Below, piece by piece: positions 4,492 to 12,293 of a DNA stretch of 64,000 bases. Position 1 is the stretch's first letter. The number at the start of each line of letters is the position of its first letter. The translations under genes and the position numbers were made by a program. Source of the stretch: Auricularia sp. M13 (lineage: Eukaryota; Basidiomycota; Agaricomycetes; Auriculariales; Auriculariaceae); the NCBI GenBank assembly GCA_037042915.1, contig CM073200.1, positions 310,001 through 374,000 of the forward strand, read 5' to 3'. Under the pieces are notes generated by a model. It was not told the DNA's origin. It did no database searches and saw only the letters and a list, made by a program, of their open reading frames with translations.

Positions 4492-5648
4492 AGTTGCTCG
4501 AGCTCGTCTGCGTCCAGAAAGACTTGCACCTACCGCATCACCTTTTCCCGGCGCGATTCCCCCTTTCTATGCTGCCTGCTTAACTGTCTGCTTCTCCTCT
4601 CCGCGTCGAGCCTGAAGACTCTCGCCCCGGAATTCCGTTCTCCTCCATAAAGTCTCAAGATCAAGAACACGAAGATCTCAACGTCCACGTCTCTGAATTC
4701 CCAGCTGCTGCGCCGGCGCGTGCACACCGACCTGCCTTGACCCCAAGTCTGTGTCTTCATTCCGAGCCGACGCAGCGTGGGAAAGGCTTCCCACTTGACG
4801 AAGAATCCCTGAACGTCTCTCTCTGCTGCGCCTGGAAGCGCAGATTATGCCAGATATCTCTCTGCTGCCCGATTTACCTCTTGGCTCCGAATCAACAGAC
4901 CGCGGGAAAGGGTTCCCAGGTCGAGCTCCCCATCTCAAAGCCGCTCATAGTAGGTTCCCGGTATCGCACCTTGTACCCTTTCGTAATCACTCGAATGAAT
5001 GAAAGTGTTTTCTCTCTCCCATTCGCACGTAGTAGCACGCGATTGCTGTCCGCAAGAGTGTTGTTCTGCTGACAAAGCCGAGTCACATCGCCGGGACGTC
5101 CGCCAGGGCGTCTGCTCTAGACCTCGGCGCTCAGCGGAGAGCGGGCTCGGGTGCGCGGCGTGGTGCGTCTCGCAGGCACACCCGTGACGCCGGTGGCGCA
5201 TGCGAGGCGTTGTCCCATGCCACGAGGATCCATGCGCCGGGATCCATGTACTTAGGCGGGCGGGATGTCGGCGTTGACGTCGTGGTTTTCTAAGACTGTC
5301 CTATTGCAGACGGCCAGTGTTGAAGGAAGCTGGCAGGGAATACTCAGGGAACACGGTGGCCGTTAATGCTGTTGGTGGTGGCAGTGGCAGCGTGATTGCA
5401 TTCGGGCGTCCGCGGAAATGGAAGAGCACGCAGGAGGCACAGCGCCGGATTGGGAATCGGGGACATCCGGGGCGTCATGCGGGGCGCAGGGAGGGCTGCG
5501 CGAGGCGGGCGCGAGGATGGAATGCGGCCGCAAAGACCGTGACGCGACTCTAGACTCCGACTCCGTCCGAGTCCGACTCGGAGATCCTTTCTGTCGCTGC
5601 TTCTCGCCGGTACCGCGTCCTTCTCGTCTTCGCCGCCGACCGCGCACG
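4492..5648. other. Intergenic region holding copy 1 of a diverged repeat
   Basis: No gene is supported between the proline-rich gene and the coiled-coil gene. The stretch 4875-5095 aligns with 11178-11415 beyond the coiled-coil gene, and a related shorter piece lies around 4745-4800. Near 5539-5561 is a 23-nt word that recurs almost unchanged in the 18.1/20.0 kb repeats. Confidence 0.5.
4875..5095 (+). repeat. Diverged direct repeat, copy 1 (left of the coiled-coil gene)
   Basis: This stretch shares ordered blocks with 11178-11415: a GGGAAAGG…CCAGGTC block, CTCCGAA, a TCGCACCT…CCCT block, an ACTCGAATGAATG-like block, and GACAAAGC(C/T)GAGTCA near the right end. The blocks keep the same order, orientation and similar spacing, so the two are old copies of one sequence. 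No terminal inverted repeats or coding sequence are seen in it. Confidence 0.6.
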
Positions 5649-8600
5649 ATGTCGCAGGCGCAACTGGACGAAAAGGATGCAAAGGTGCGATTTTGGCGCG
5701 GTCAACGAACAAAGGCCTGGCGGCGGGCTGACGACTGCCGTCACGGTGACGTTTGACAGATAGCCATACTGCAGCGCGCACTGGCCGAGCGCGCCTCCGA
5801 GCTCGCGCCGAAAGAATTCATGAAGAGGATGGGGGAGGGCCTTAAGTGCCAGGTTCGTCACGTGCAAACTCGCGCGCTGCCCGTGGCTCATACAGTACGA
5901 CACAGTTTGAGAAGCTGGGGGACGAATTGCGCAAGACACAGGAACTGGTACGCTCTGCGGTCCTTGGCTTCCCTGGTGCTGATTGGTCCTGTAGCTCGCC
6001 GCGGCGTCCTCCAGAGCGTCGCGGGCAGAGCAAGAGGTCGAGCGGCTGGGCGAAAGTGTTTGTAGCCACGGCCAGCTGTTGTGCCCACGCTTGTGCTCAC
6101 GCGTTGTGCAGTCCAAGACACTCGAGCGCGAGCTTGAAGAAAGTCGAACAAGAGTGCGTGGAAACGGTCTTTGTGGACGCAAGCTGGCTCAAGTGATGAC
6201 AGATTACATCTCTCGAGTCCAGCGAACGCGAACGAGATACACTGAGGGAGAAAAGTGCCAAATTATCCTTAGTTGTGCGTAATTTTACCCGCCCTGTCCA
6301 CTTCGGCTGTACTGACTAGCCACGGCGTTGCCAGGTCGATAGGTTGCGCGAAAGCGAACAGGCGCTGAAGACGGAGCGCGCCCAGCTATTGCAGGAGAAG
6401 AATGTTCGTTCTTTTCCTACTCTACCGAAATTCTGCCTTGCTCAAACGACGTAGAATATGGGCACGGCCTACGCTGAAGAACGAGCGGTTCGTCCGTCCC
6501 CCCCGGTCTTGCGAGCTCGGACGCTCATCGATGGTCCATCTGCAGACCCTCGAAGAGAAGTGTGCGCAATTGGAGCGCGAGAAGACTGTGCGTTTGCATA
6601 CAGAATCCTTTCACGCGCATACGTGTGCTTACAAGCCTCGGATAGACTCTTGAAACCGCACGCGCACAAACCGCACGGGAAAACGCGGTACTGCTCTTTG
6701 ACAGCGCAATGTGGCGCGCGTTGACAGCTCCGCGTAGAACCTCGAAGCGGAGAACGCGCGACTGACCGAGAATAACACCGTGCGTTCCCTCCATCAATAG
6801 CTAATCCCATCCTAAGGACCATTCGCATGCGCGTCTAGACGCTCGAGGCAGAGCAGGCGCGTCTGTTGCAGGAGAAAGCGGTATATCATCTCTCTCTCCA
6901 TTCTCGTCTTTCATCAAACTCAACGACTGCATTTAGACGGCGGAATCGACCATCGCGGAATTGCGCGCAGAGAAGCAAGTGCGTCTTGGGTCTGTCCAGC
7001 GCGCTCCGCATTGCGCTCACTGTGTCCTCGCCGTGCCCGTCCGTCGTGTGACAGAACGCCGAACTGCGCGCTGGGCGAGCAGCTACGTATCTCGAGATGC
7101 ACGCTCAGACCCACGCGGTGTTTGAGGACATGCGCCAGACCATTCTGCAGCAGCGGGAGCGCATTGCTGCGTACGAGGTGCGTTGGGTTTTGCGGCGTAC
7201 ACAGCTGCGATGCTCATGCCGGCGTAGACGCAGGAAGAGGCGTTTAAGGAGGCGACGGCGCGCGTGGAGGAGATGCGGGTGCGTATTGGGCTTATTCGGT
7301 CCAGTCGACGGCGGCGTGTTCAGTCAGTGCTATCCAGACACAAATGGACGCGCTAGTAGATCGTGAGGTCCAGGCGTCTCAGCGTTACGCCGACCTCGAA
7401 CAGGAAAAGGTCAGTCTCCCACCCTTTCCCCCCGGCCACGCATTTTCGCTCACGCACGCTTGCACATCCTCAGGTGAAGGCGGACGCCGAGCTGAACAGT
7501 GTGCTCGCGCGCGAGGCGCAGCTTCTGGTACGTCTTACGCACATCGTCGGTGGCTATAGGTCCTTGAATATGTGGTGCAGGAGCAGGTGGAAGCACTGGA
7601 GAAGGGACAGGTGCGCATGAGGGAGCTTGAGGACGATCTGGAGCGCGCGAAGGTTTGTTCCTGTCCCTCGCCGTGCTTCATCCTCGAGCGCTGAGCATCG
7701 CGCGCACAGGCCCAGATCGTCGCGCTCGAAGCCCATGCGAAGCAGACGTCCGACTCGGCACAGCAAATGCTGCACGATGCGCGCGAGAACTTCAATCGCA
7801 CTCTTCAGGTACGCGCGCCCACGGCTTCCTCTTGCTTGTACGCTTACTTTCGTTGAGCAGGCAAAAGACGATGTCTGGAATGCGAAAGACGAGGAGCTGC
7901 GACGTGCGCAGGAGCAAGCGCGTGCAGCCGTACAGGTGCACACGCACATTGCTTCCTGCTGCCCGCCATTTTTGACCCGAAACCGTATTTCCCCTCAACA
8001 GCAATGTCAGCAGCTGGCCATCCAGTTGCAGGCAGCGAAGACGCAGCTTGCGCAGGCGCAGACGCATATCCTCAGCCTCCAAACGCAGGTCCAGGTGTGT
8101 GGAAGGAAGTTCTCGCCCGCTACGTGTTCGCTCACGACGCTGCGTTCGCGCTCGGAAGAATGCCGGGCCGACCTACCAGGAGGTGCTTGCGCTGCGCGCG
8201 CAAGTCACAAATCTGCAGAATCAAGTCCAGGTGCGCCTCCCGCTCATATTAATATTATCCCGCCTGCGCCTGCGTGCTGACGCGACAGCAGCAATACGGG
8301 CAGGTGCTCAACAACCGCGACGCGCGCGTGGCGAGCCTCGAGATCCAGCTGCAGCAAGCGCAGGCGCGTCTCCGCACTTTCTCCTTCTGACGGCTCGCGC
8401 GCGCGTGATGGTGTACTTATACTGTTGTCGGTTTTTTTTGTCCCGCTTGGGTATCAGGGGTCGAAGGCATGTACACTTTTTCTTTTTGGCATCAATGCAA
8501 TATTGTTATTCGCGCTTCTCATCATGCTTTTTGCTTTTTCGTAGGCGCGGCGCTCGCAGGTGGGCACACTTTTTTGCATCGATGGATGAGGTGTAAGATG

Positions 8601-10797
8601 TGTCTGGTTGGCTGACTCGTGTGGGTGTGCAGGATGCACAGACTGAGCCGATCCTTGTGCTGCGTGTCTCGAAGCAGGAGTTGGAGGCACGCGAGGGGAA
8701 GAAGGTGTGCCCCCAGCGCCCCGTATGCGCCCGTCCAGGCGATTGACGATTGTGCGCGCGCAGGACGGCAGTGTCCAGGCCAAGTTAGAAGACGTATGCT
8801 CCTCTTCGCTGATATCTGTGTGTTGTCTGATATTCTGCCAGAATACTATGGCCCTGGTGAAACGGTCCGCCACCGAGGCAGAGGTACGATGATGATCTGG
8901 CGTTCGCGTCGGAGGATCACTCATCTGCTGTAGATTGCGGCTCTTGTCGCGGAGCGCGATGACCTGCTGCAACAAGTTAAGGGCCAGGACGACCTGCAAA
9001 AGAGCCTGCTCGACCAAGTCGAGGCTGCGAACGTTCGTCGTAAATTATCTTTCCTTGCTCTATCTAAAAAATTGTGACAGAGGACGAACGCTGTGCTACG
9101 GAGCGAACTCAGCAGGCTGCATGAGATCCGCTATACGACTGGCGCCGTGCTGGCTGTGTGTACCTTGGGTTTCTCTTCCGTGCTCATGCTGACTGGTGCA
9201 GGCAAAACCGGGCGATGCCAGCACGCCGACTGTGGCTAAACCTACTCTCGGACCGTCCAATGCTGCTAATGCACAACCGGAGGCTGGACCGAGCACCATC
9301 AGGGTAACGCATGCGATTTCCGACCTATTATGTCTGCTCATTGAACTGTTGTAGCCCGCGAAGTCGCTCTCGCCTGGGTCAAAAGAGAATGCTCTTCCCC
9401 GCACACAGACACAATCTCACCAAACCGCTCATGCCGTGGCACCCCCCTCATCATCAGTCGTGTCCGAACCTGTCTTCGGTCGCGTGGTCCAGCAGAATTT
9501 GCGCTCTCAGACATGGCCCACGTCCGGTCACATGTGGTCAGTCGCCACCTCAATCATTCACTGACTTTTCGAACCGGTCTCACATCCTGCCAGGTTAAAT
9601 ATAATGGTGTGCCCCATGGAGGGGGGCAGCGTTCCGCTGCGCGTGCTGCTCGAAGCGTTTGTGCGTGACTCGGGCAGCGCTGTGGACGCCGCCGAGTTTG
9701 GCGCCTTGGTGCGGCAGTGGGGGGACAGGATGTTCGCGGGCAGGATGCAGCTCGTCGGGGACGCTCTCCGCGGCGTCGCGATGAACGACGGCACCACGGC
9801 GAAGACTGCCCTGGTGCCTGCGACGCCTCGTGCGCCACCGCCTGCTGCTGCTCCCCGGTCCCTTCCTACGCCGGCAACGGCGCCCCGTCCGCCTCCTCCT
9901 GCGGGACCCCGACCGCCGCTGCCAGCGCGGCTTGCTGCACCCCGGCCTCCGCCACCGCCCGCCCAAGTGAAAGCTGAGCCAGATACGGCTAGGGCTGCGC
10001 CGGCGAAACGGCGAACGGCGGAGGGACCCGCAGGGGAAGAACGGCCGGTCAAGCGCGCCCGCTCGGGTTCGCCGAGTGCGGCATCGAGCTCCGAGGCGCC
10101 GGCGTCGTCGCCTACTCGTCGTATCGCCTCTTCCAGCCGTGAGCTGGCGTCTTTGCCCCTCACGCGCCGTGCGCCGGCTGCTGCTCCTGCTGCTGTGAAG
10201 GTTTCTACGGCCGCGCAGTCTGCAACTACGGAAGCTGAGCTGCCGACAAAGCACAAGCCCAAGCCCAAGCCCGCGCAGGCTCAGGCCGGGCCCTCATCCC
10301 AGCCAGCCCACGCACCTGTCAATGCACGGTCGTCGTCTTCTTCTCAGCGCGCGGAATCGTCTTCTTCGCAGCGCGCGGGATCGTCTTCTTCGCAGCGCCC
10401 GGGGACGTCTTCGTCGTCGAGGCAGGAGCCGGCGCGCGTGGACCCCGAGCACACGCACGACGTGGCGTGGGATATCGAGGAATCTGGCATGGAGGACCTC
10501 TTCGTCCTCTGGCTCCGGCAGGGCATTCTGCGCGACATCTCCAGCACAGTCTCGCGCAGCGTTGCGGTGCAGCGTGCGACTGAGACGCTCCGCCGGCGTG
10601 GGTGGGTTGCGGAAGACGGCAGCTTCGTCGTCCCTAAGACTTCGTCTGGTGAGGCTTCCACTGGCATCGGGGTGTTGATGTTCGTTGACAGATCGGAAGC
10701 TGACGCTTTTCTTTTGTCCTTTGTTTTTGCAGAATATCGGTATGCTCGATTTGGGCAGCTGACCATTTCTACGGCGTTGGGATTCTTTGACTTTTGA
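5649..10797 (+). CDS. Large coiled-coil protein encoded by many small phase-0 exons; proline-rich basic C-terminal half
   Basis: Hand-spliced exons include 5649-5684, 5760-5852, 5906-5947, 5995-6057, 6112-6153, 6203-6274, 6335-6403, 6546-6587, 6738-6779, 6839-6880, 6937-6978, 7055-7177, 7228-7278, 7338-7409, 7474-7527, 7560-7652, 7710-7808, 7861-7935, 8002-8094, 8180-8230, 8292-about 8363, 8633-8704, 8764-8793, 8842-8883, 8934-9032, 9081-9155, 9202-9303, 9355-9536, 9594-10648 and 10733-10797. Nearly all of the first two thirds is heptad coiled coil (for example TLEEKCAQLEREKT, NLEAENARLTENNT). The rest is Pro/Ala/Ser-rich with a KRRTAEGPAGEERPVKRAR stretch that could be a nuclear signal, an SSSSQR repeat, and a helical C-terminus (MEDLFVLWLRQGILRDI). 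The join across 8364-8632 is unresolved. It may use a GC donor plus a tiny exon, or the locus may be two genes: 5649-8390 (TGA) and 8582 (ATG)-10797. Roughly 1,030 aa if one gene. Family not recognised. Confidence 0.65.
6546..6978 (+). other. Run of four consecutive 42-nt exons, each two heptads
   Basis: Exons 6546-6587, 6738-6779, 6839-6880 and 6937-6978 are each exactly 14 codons, begin and end in phase 0, and encode similar peptides of the pattern T/N-L-E-x-E-x-A-x-L. Three further 42-nt exons lie at 5906-5947, 6112-6153 and 8842-8883. A 63-nt exon at 5995-6057 equals three heptads. The pattern suggests growth of the coiled coil by duplication of an exon with its intron. Confidence 0.7.
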
Positions 10798-11547
10798 AAG
10801 TGAGAGATCCGTGTATGACTGTATGCGTGCGGTGTGTGTTCTATATTCCAATACTTCTATACCTCTCATATGCTATGCGGAATGTTTTCTTGCTGTCAGC
10901 GCCCCACGCGGTGCTCTGCTTCAAGCATGGAGATTCTACGTCTGCTTGAGTTCCAGCTGATGCGTGCGGTGCTATGCCAAATCTCTCGCCTGCATGATCT
11001 GCTTGGTACCTAATACCTTTCCTCCGAAGTGACTGAGCGTGGGAACCCTTTCCGAACCCAGGTCATTTCGAATCGGTTGAGCACGAGGATCCGAGGGTCT
11101 CTATTGGTATGAACCTCGCCGGCGCATGCTCTCATGCTGCATGTGCGTTATACTCGATCCAATCGTGTCGTCTATTTCCTTGCTCCGAACCGGGACCGTG
11201 GGAAAGGTTTGCCAGGTCAGGCTTCAACTTCAAACTCGCTCCTATCCCGATGTCGCACCTGTTCCCTCACAAAATCGCTTGAACGACTGAATGCATCTTT
11301 TCTCACGCATTCTCACGCGACAGGACGCGCTTGCGGCTCGAGGATGCACTCTTCTACCCAAACGCGACGCGGAGGGCGTTGTTCGGCTGACAAAGCTGAG
11401 TCAGCTCGTCATGCGTATTGCGACATGCGCAGACGCTGACGGACGAAGCGCGTGGGTTGCAGTGTGTGGCACGCCACGGCCTGGACGGTAAGTATAAGTA
11501 AACTTCGCGGAGTAGCGTAGCTGCCAGTGCGTTCTGCATATCCAACG
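10798..11547. other. Intergenic region with copy 2 of the diverged repeat
   Basis: No coding sequence is supported here. It contains the 3' flank of the coiled-coil gene, the repeat copy at 11178-11415 and the promoter side of the DOPA-dioxygenase-like gene. Confidence 0.5.
11178..11415 (+). repeat. Diverged direct repeat, copy 2 (right of the coiled-coil gene)
   Basis: Partner of 4875-5095, in the same orientation. The best-kept blocks are CTCCGAA, GGGAAAGG, CCAGGTC, TCGCACCTGTTCCCT and the end block GACAAAGCTGAGTCA. Together the copies bracket the 5649-10797 gene. Confidence 0.6.
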
Positions 11548-12293
11548 ATGAGCACCTACACCGGTAGCGAGCCCAACCCGTACGGGTCTCCGCTTGCAGA
11601 CTGGACAGGGCCCAGGGACCCGCTGCCCACGACTGTCAACGAGGACGGCAAGTCGCTCACGAATATCCCTGGGCCCAAGTCGCGTGCGTGTCCTGCGTCC
11701 AGTGCGCCGTGGACGCTGTTCTGATTGACACGGTTCAACGACGCAGCCGTCTACGACGCTTTCCCGAAGCAGTTCTTGCCCAATAAGAACGGGTTCGACT
11801 TCCACAGTGCGCTGTCAGACTTCCAAGTGTGCAGGGGTTCTGCTGATCGCGGGATACCACTGTGCAGTCTATTACAACGTACACGTGGAGTCGGAGGCGC
11901 AGTTCGCGCGCGAGCTGCACGAGCGCATCCGTCGCGAGTTTCCCGAGCTGAGAATCTACCGGGTACGCTGCTGTCGTGGCTGGCACACTCTTGGGCGTTG
12001 CTGACGAGCGCTGCAGTTCTGGGAGAAGCCCGTGGGCCCGCACCCTGTGCCGATGTTCGAGGTGAACGTATTTGACCCGCACCAGACGGGCGCCCTGTTC
12101 AGCTTCCTGGCCGTCAACCGCGGCCCGTGCTCGTGCGTGCGCTCTCGGCGCTTGTAAACTGGCTAACATCGGGTTTAGCGTGCTCATCCATCCCAATACC
12201 GGCGACGCGCTTGGAGACCACACTGAGCGCGCTACATGGATGGGAAGGCCGTATCCTCTGATTGTCGACTTTCTGAAGCAGAGATTCAACTGA
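11548..12293 (+). CDS. DOPA 4,5-dioxygenase family protein
   Basis: Five exons (11548-11683, 11747-11806, 11868-11962, 12017-12132, 12179-12293) join in frame to 173 aa. The family opens catechol rings extradiol, for example L-DOPA in betalain or muscaflavin formation. The protein shows the family signatures: NGFDFHIYYNVHVE with the His of the first metal-binding strand, then FARELHERIRREFPELRIYR, FWEKPVGPHPVPMFEVN, and SVLIHPNTGDALGDHTERA followed by WMG. Length and motif order fit the fungal small dioxygenase family. The start is the ATG at 11548 and no signal peptide is seen. The natural substrate cannot be read from sequence; many fungal members are not linked to pigment. Confidence 0.88.

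Follow-up and report, generated by a model that had tools for sequence, protein, structure and literature searches.

How does a long coiled coil come to be encoded by some thirty very small exons, nearly every one of which begins and ends between codons? This question is raised by a gene of Auricularia sp. M13 (genome of 52 Mb, 14 contigs) that lies on the forward strand at 5649-10797 of a stretch of 64,000 nt, C8:310001-374000, which we call the window and whose positions are used below. Its predicted coding region, of 33 exons and 1059 aa, comprises a coiled coil reaching to about 9201, then a low-complexity part rich in Pro, Ser, Lys and Arg, and then a C-terminal region. From our analysis it would be logical to suggest, and we consider it likely, that part of the rod of this coiled-coil protein grew longer long ago, when a symmetric phase-0 exon of 14 codons was duplicated in tandem along with its intron; a known process would mostly account for the gene.

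The evidence that carries this suggestion comes from five consecutive exons of 42 nt, here called the array, at 6546-6587 (TLEEKCAQLEREKT), 6646-6687 (TLETARAQTARENA), 6738-6779 (NLEAENARLTENNT), 6839-6880 (TLEAEQARLLQEKA) and 6937-6978 (TAESTIAELRAEKQ). Eight exons of the completed model have this length; the original prediction had named seven, all of which were recovered, but it missed 6646-6687, and its run of four similar neighbours, rightly taken to be related, is in fact five long. The mean pairwise BLOSUM score of the five is 21.5, versus -1.35 in register-matched windows of the same protein, and this score was reached by none of 4000 register-matched sets (maximum 11.3) and, under a stricter same-register match, by none of 3000 (maximum 11.0), so the array exons are indeed more alike than random heptads. 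Non-core positions alone give 17.2 versus -2.8, identity of the DNA averages 20.8 of 42 nt versus 13.8 in register-matched windows, and swapping the heptad halves lowers the similarity (p=0.0012). Judged by these comparisons, the five exons are homologous beyond the common heptad pattern. The same can be said of the tail of the 69-nt exon at 6335-6403, whose last 14 codons (ALKTERAQLLQEKN) score 23.4 against the array, the best of 495 other windows giving 15.2, and which by this measure is a further copy of the unit; when the exon peptides were locally aligned all against all, with shuffled exons as null, 6335/6839 was the only one of 406 pairs that stood out. A 33-nt exon at 6455-6487 (NMGTAYAEERA) is possibly a shortened copy. 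Taken alone it is weak, its best single protein comparison being equalled by 2.1% of windows and its average against the array exons by 11.8%. Joined to the 6335-6403 tail it scores 49 against array exons 4 and 5, with a null maximum of 26 among 473 windows and with 14-33 for the other three array pairings, the score of 49 being owed mostly to the preceding 42 nt and not to 6455-6487; there is a hint here that one event may have copied two array units together. The copies, which had been expected to be recent, are old, with about half of their bases identical and with introns that cannot be aligned and are no more alike than random ones, and we see no sign of recent or polymorphic copies in this genome.

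The gene structure was obtained with a splice and codon model that is blind to intron phase and was trained on the window and 200 kb of the same genome (264 kb); the final training set contained 76 genes scoring at least 15, with 168 introns, and included a ten-exon piece of the coiled-coil gene. The median length of predicted introns is 56 nt, their donor is GTRCGT and their branch CTGAC, and short introns of this median with such signals are the pattern of mushroom-forming fungi. Left unforced, the model gave ten exons in 7097-8390 (gene score 44.9) and five in 8725-9354 (score only 4.6); the lengths of all 15 are multiples of 3, and in 11 of them both ends match the final model. In a forced run, with the start fixed at the ATG at 5649 and an end required after 10700, 32 exons were obtained, including the seven 42-nt exons of the original prediction, with posteriors of 0.857, 0.964, 0.944, 1.0, 0.947, 0.997 and 1.0, and its single 21-codon exon (63 nt, 5995-6057, posterior 0.95). 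The forced chain scores +73 versus -198 to -234 for eight dinucleotide shuffles, in which intron phases are mixed across all three frames. Its large exon starts at 9594 as in the final model, but ends at 10679; the last splice pair of the final model (donor 10649, acceptor end 10732) was picked by hand. The completed model, with 32 introns, supports a structure of about 33 exons from the ATG at 5649.

Introns 1 to 30 of this model are all in phase 0, closing 30 exons of 5-41 codons each (626 codons, 5649-9303), and the mostly phase-0 character first noticed for about 30 exons was thereby borne out. In the forced run, made without any phase preference, 26865 of the 27042 sampled introns before 9300 (99%) are in phase 0; the final two introns, at 9537 and 10649, are in phase 2 and phase 1. 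For comparison, we took 60 other multi-exon predictions scoring at least 20, a set with a few faulty exons (e.g., lengths 0 and 3), in which phase 0 occurs in 67 of 158 introns and the median length of the 98 internal exons is 193.5 nt, none of them being 42 nt long. Four coiled-coil control loci have phase 0 in 20 of 32 introns, and their exons are mostly far larger than those of the coiled-coil gene. They are L033, the sole TPR/MLP1 family match above cut-off; L036 and L039, weaker and coiled-coil-like; and L041, an SMC gene that was predicted as two pieces; mostly these loci are extracts of about 3 kb, in which genes may be cut. Left out as not clearly coiled-coil were L032, L034, L035, L037, L038 (this one without a model run) and L040, and L036 yielded another short prediction (phases 0, 0, 2) that was also excluded. 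Thirty phase-0 introns in a row would have a chance of about 7e-12 at the rate of 67/158 and about 7e-7 at the control rate of 20/32, figures worked out by hand for introns that, if made by duplication, are not independent. In one control, L036 (C11:1632754-1636044), 6 of 6 predicted introns are in phase 0; its exons are mostly larger, and no neighbouring introns stand at one heptad position. Both strands of the 264 kb were also scanned, with no gene model, for chains of at least four open units of one length (every multiple of three from 30 to 63 nt); with bare GT donors the scan gave just this array (42 nt, five long) and one other chain (33 nt, four long). With stricter GTNNG donors it gave 0 pairs at 42 nt, because some of the array's own donors are weak, and 1-4 at other lengths. 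Within the part of the genome sampled, namely the 264 kb plus some additional loci, the predicted gene is unusual, and the model supports this well.

Are the introns also placed with respect to the heptads? Heptad multiples as a general rule of exon length, which the original prediction seemed to imply, are not supported, with 9 of 30 exons having such a length and 5 of 26 when the array is counted once (p=0.31). Lengths of 0 or 3 modulo 7 codons are over-represented, in 19 of 30 exons and, when the array counts as a single exon, in 15 of 26 (p=0.002), an excess spotted post hoc that prompted the test of heptad register. It was performed with a simple seven-state heptad model at five stiffness settings, and the null draws came from matching codon-end classes, by which a preference for NAG is allowed for and preferences in the following codon are not. 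All five array exons stand on one register, each opening at position c. Ahead of exons 5760 to 6335 there are six introns, all of them preceding position a (5 of 6 at the stiffest setting). Over the 29 introns in the phase-0 part, 14 of 28 adjacent pairs share a heptad position at four settings and 13 at the stiffest, where 3.5 are expected, a level observed in 0 of 4000 null draws; with the array's four inner introns dropped, 10 of 24 still share a position (expected 3.1, p 0.00025-0.0005 at four settings), or 9 of 24 at the stiffest (p 0.0025). In the control genes, with introns of all phases, 3 of 27 neighbours stand at one heptad position. A second common exon length, 72 nt (24 codons, six exons), was considered as another duplicated family but is not supported as a group, the mean pair score being -9.0 versus a background of -10.6; among the 15 pairs of these exons, 7338/7581 (top 0.05%) and 7581/8292 (top 0.2% of window pairs) are alike.

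Several results weigh against duplication and have to be set beside it. The original prediction had an exon of two heptads copied with its intron, and exon homology, the single register and the spacing agree with this; the array introns give it no support, their similarity being no greater than that of random introns of this gene, to which the comparison was confined (p=0.49), though likeness between introns may fade with age and would strengthen the case for duplication without being required for it. No homology to the array was found in other exons save the 6335-6403 tail and perhaps 6455-6487: the array profile gives no excess at other exon starts (p=0.83), the scattered 42-nt exons at 5906-5947 (FEKLGDELRKTQEL), 6112-6153 (SKTLERELEESRTR) and 8842-8883 (NTMALVKRSATEAE), formerly counted as akin to it, have no relation to it that we could find, and the first-block exons are homologous among themselves only at p=0.097. 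The residue weights of the heptad model were set by hand, and the overall register spread is borderline without the four inner array introns (p 0.016-0.064). An alternative is a gain of introns without exon duplication, i.e. their insertion into a coiled-coil coding sequence that was already repetitive. Lys, Gln and Glu codons ending in AG would make phase 0 the natural phase for insertion, and in the joined coding sequence 31 of 33 AAGG/CAGG, 72 of 112 AAG/CAG and 126 of 183 NAG sites are in phase 0, so that with this composition intron gain alone would also yield many phase-0 introns. Moreover, 13 of the 30 exons end in a NAG codon versus 20% of codons, the coiled-coil controls lean to phase 0 as well, and massive intron gain is on record for an alpha-amylase gene of Basidiomycetes (PMC3584928). 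The amylase case, however, comes without a phase-0 excess and with little sequence information at the insertion sites (PMC3584928). In our gene none of the five array exons, nor any of the three exons preceding them, ends in NAG, all five start with A and not with G, and 14-codon steps taken five times running, matching the peptide repeat, would need chance; for gain of the introner type, we found no excess similarity among the array introns, compared within this gene. We regard insertion as rather unlikely.

Two other explanations appear to us far less probable still. Short stretches of heptads in which Leu, Glu, Ala and Lys abound might have become alike without common descent: the composition is of low complexity, 14-residue units carry little information, and no single pair among the five array exons stood out against shuffled exons, a further point to be counted against our interpretation, because of which the case for homology rests on the exon-aligned comparison of all five together. 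Yet in that comparison no same-register set, among 4000 or among 3000, was as similar as the array, the similarity is carried by non-core positions, and it suffers when the halves are swapped, so convergence would be very surprising. It may also be objected that the small exons, a number of them or even all, are artefacts of the gene model. Several N-terminal exons have negative coding scores; 5649-6978 was not predicted as one gene in the unforced run, where a cheaper-gene setting gave fragments only; and the best forced path omits two exons, 6203-6274 and 6646-6687, bypassing them via introns of 181 and 150 nt. Both were added by hand, the former (72 nt, negative coding score) because of the GTGCGT donor at 6275 and the latter because it is homologous to the neighbouring exons. 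The wide gap between the forced chain and its shuffles, the 99% share of phase 0 in a model indifferent to phase and the 11 downstream exons that the unforced run returned with identical ends speak against this objection, and we give it hardly any credence.

We propose, then, that in the tandem duplication preferred here the ancestral unit would have been a symmetric phase-0 exon of 14 codons, copied along with its intron, and the array exons start 92-101 nt apart, as expected for such copies. The two-heptad length would be permissive for duplication: with a unit of exactly two heptads and with introns between codons, copies extend the rod while leaving frame and register intact. Some event may have duplicated two units at once, and the same process, by now too old to be traced in the sequence, may lie behind the shared heptad positions elsewhere in the rod. 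The donor of exon 6646-6687, GTACTG, is the weakest in the phase-0 part (score -3.29, the 0.6% point of 158 background donors), the one at 9304 being almost as weak (-3.15), and we may hypothesise that this candidate cassette exon is sometimes skipped. A wider proposal, in which the whole rod, and not the array alone, arose from phase-0 exons copied again and again in register and 6646-6687 serves as a cassette for rods differing by exactly two heptads, seems to us doubtful; if it is true, introns stay fixed to heptad positions (first a run at a, then one at c) although sequence similarity has long since faded. In introns held to the heptad register the history of a coiled-coil rod's assembly would be preserved, and the gene would serve as a natural test of whether symmetric exons let protein length change through duplication or splicing while frame and register are kept. 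Its interest would rise if the exon number were found to vary by two heptads, or if the register lock proved to be a trace of exon-by-exon assembly.

Other parts of the gene may be described more briefly. The intron at 8364-8544, of 181 nt, is probably of the GC-AG kind (donor GCGCGT), is much longer than its neighbours, has T-rich stretches and may hide a further micro-exon, possibly a decayed one at about 8458-8466; a possible micro-exon duplicate near 8461 / 8554 scores 22 (p=0.011 after selection). Downstream of the rod, 9355-9536 encodes the stretch SPGSKENALPR with a KEN-type motif, which we take to be a possible, putative cell-cycle degradation signal. The large exon (9594-10648) encodes a Pro/Ser/Lys/Arg-rich linker between two less biased stretches and carries, at 10333-10416, three direct repeats with 24-nt spacing that encode a Ser/Gln/Arg-rich stretch. 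For the second less biased stretch there is a weak hint that it may be a domain: a 92-aa C-terminal piece matched PF25213 (HVO_A0261_N) with E=0.0038 and 17.5 bits, below the cut-off of 35, and the predicted structure of 71 residues at 10435-10647 has a mean pLDDT of 58.1 (low confidence). The full protein and a 68-aa piece gave 0 Pfam families at E of at most 1. Going by composition, the rod protein might act as a scaffold or tether. In searches of its own genome, a C-terminal query gave three matches, all within the coiled-coil gene, and an N-terminal query gave eight at E of at most 1, seven in the gene and one on C3 (E=0.23) in a protein that looks unrelated; a second copy of the gene was not detected with these queries, and viral contigs queried with the large exon gave no match.

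On either side of the gene, some 6.3 kb from each other, lie short non-coding stretches that are alike: 5055-5090 / 11373-11408 are 83% identical, and a second pair, 4761-4783 / 11023-11045, 78%. When 11020-11430 was used as a query, the genome gave two relatives near C8:266000 (68-78% identity); the upstream copy was not reported. At 11548-12293, on the same strand, there is a neighbouring gene of five predicted exons, which we presume to resemble DOPA 4,5-dioxygenase.

In repeat-protein genes, symmetric exons are known to duplicate in tandem, the 54-nt exons of collagen being an example. As in duplication of this type, the exon of our gene corresponds to whole structural repeats, one intron phase prevails and copies add without a change of frame; unlike there, the unit is two coiled-coil heptads in a fungal gene, it has only a few copies, which have diverged strongly, and many neighbouring exons have other lengths. 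A fungal coiled-coil gene with heptad exons was not found in the literature searched, with partial coverage of titles and abstract openings. The Basidiomycete alpha-amylase gene is similar in its many short introns, their median likewise being 56 bp, with GTrnG...yAG signals and some GC donors, but, in the parts of the report consulted, neither a phase-0 excess is reported for it nor are repeat-unit exons mentioned (PMC3584928). In Drosophila, introns are reported to have been gained where coding sequence holding a proto-splice site was duplicated in tandem (PMC2891723). There, as in our proposal, tandem duplication makes new exon-intron borders, but those cases are single novel introns in conserved genes, whereas ours concerns recurring exons of equal size (PMC2891723). 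Another comparison is offered by the troponin T gene TNNT3, where small exons of the same phase, in a gene with a heptad-repeat domain, were ascribed to exon shuffling (PMC2447309). The same-phase exons of TNNT3 are 5' and alternatively spliced, and the authors distinguish them from the 3' exons that encode the heptad domain (PMC2447309), while in the gene described here the predicted same-phase exons build the coil itself.

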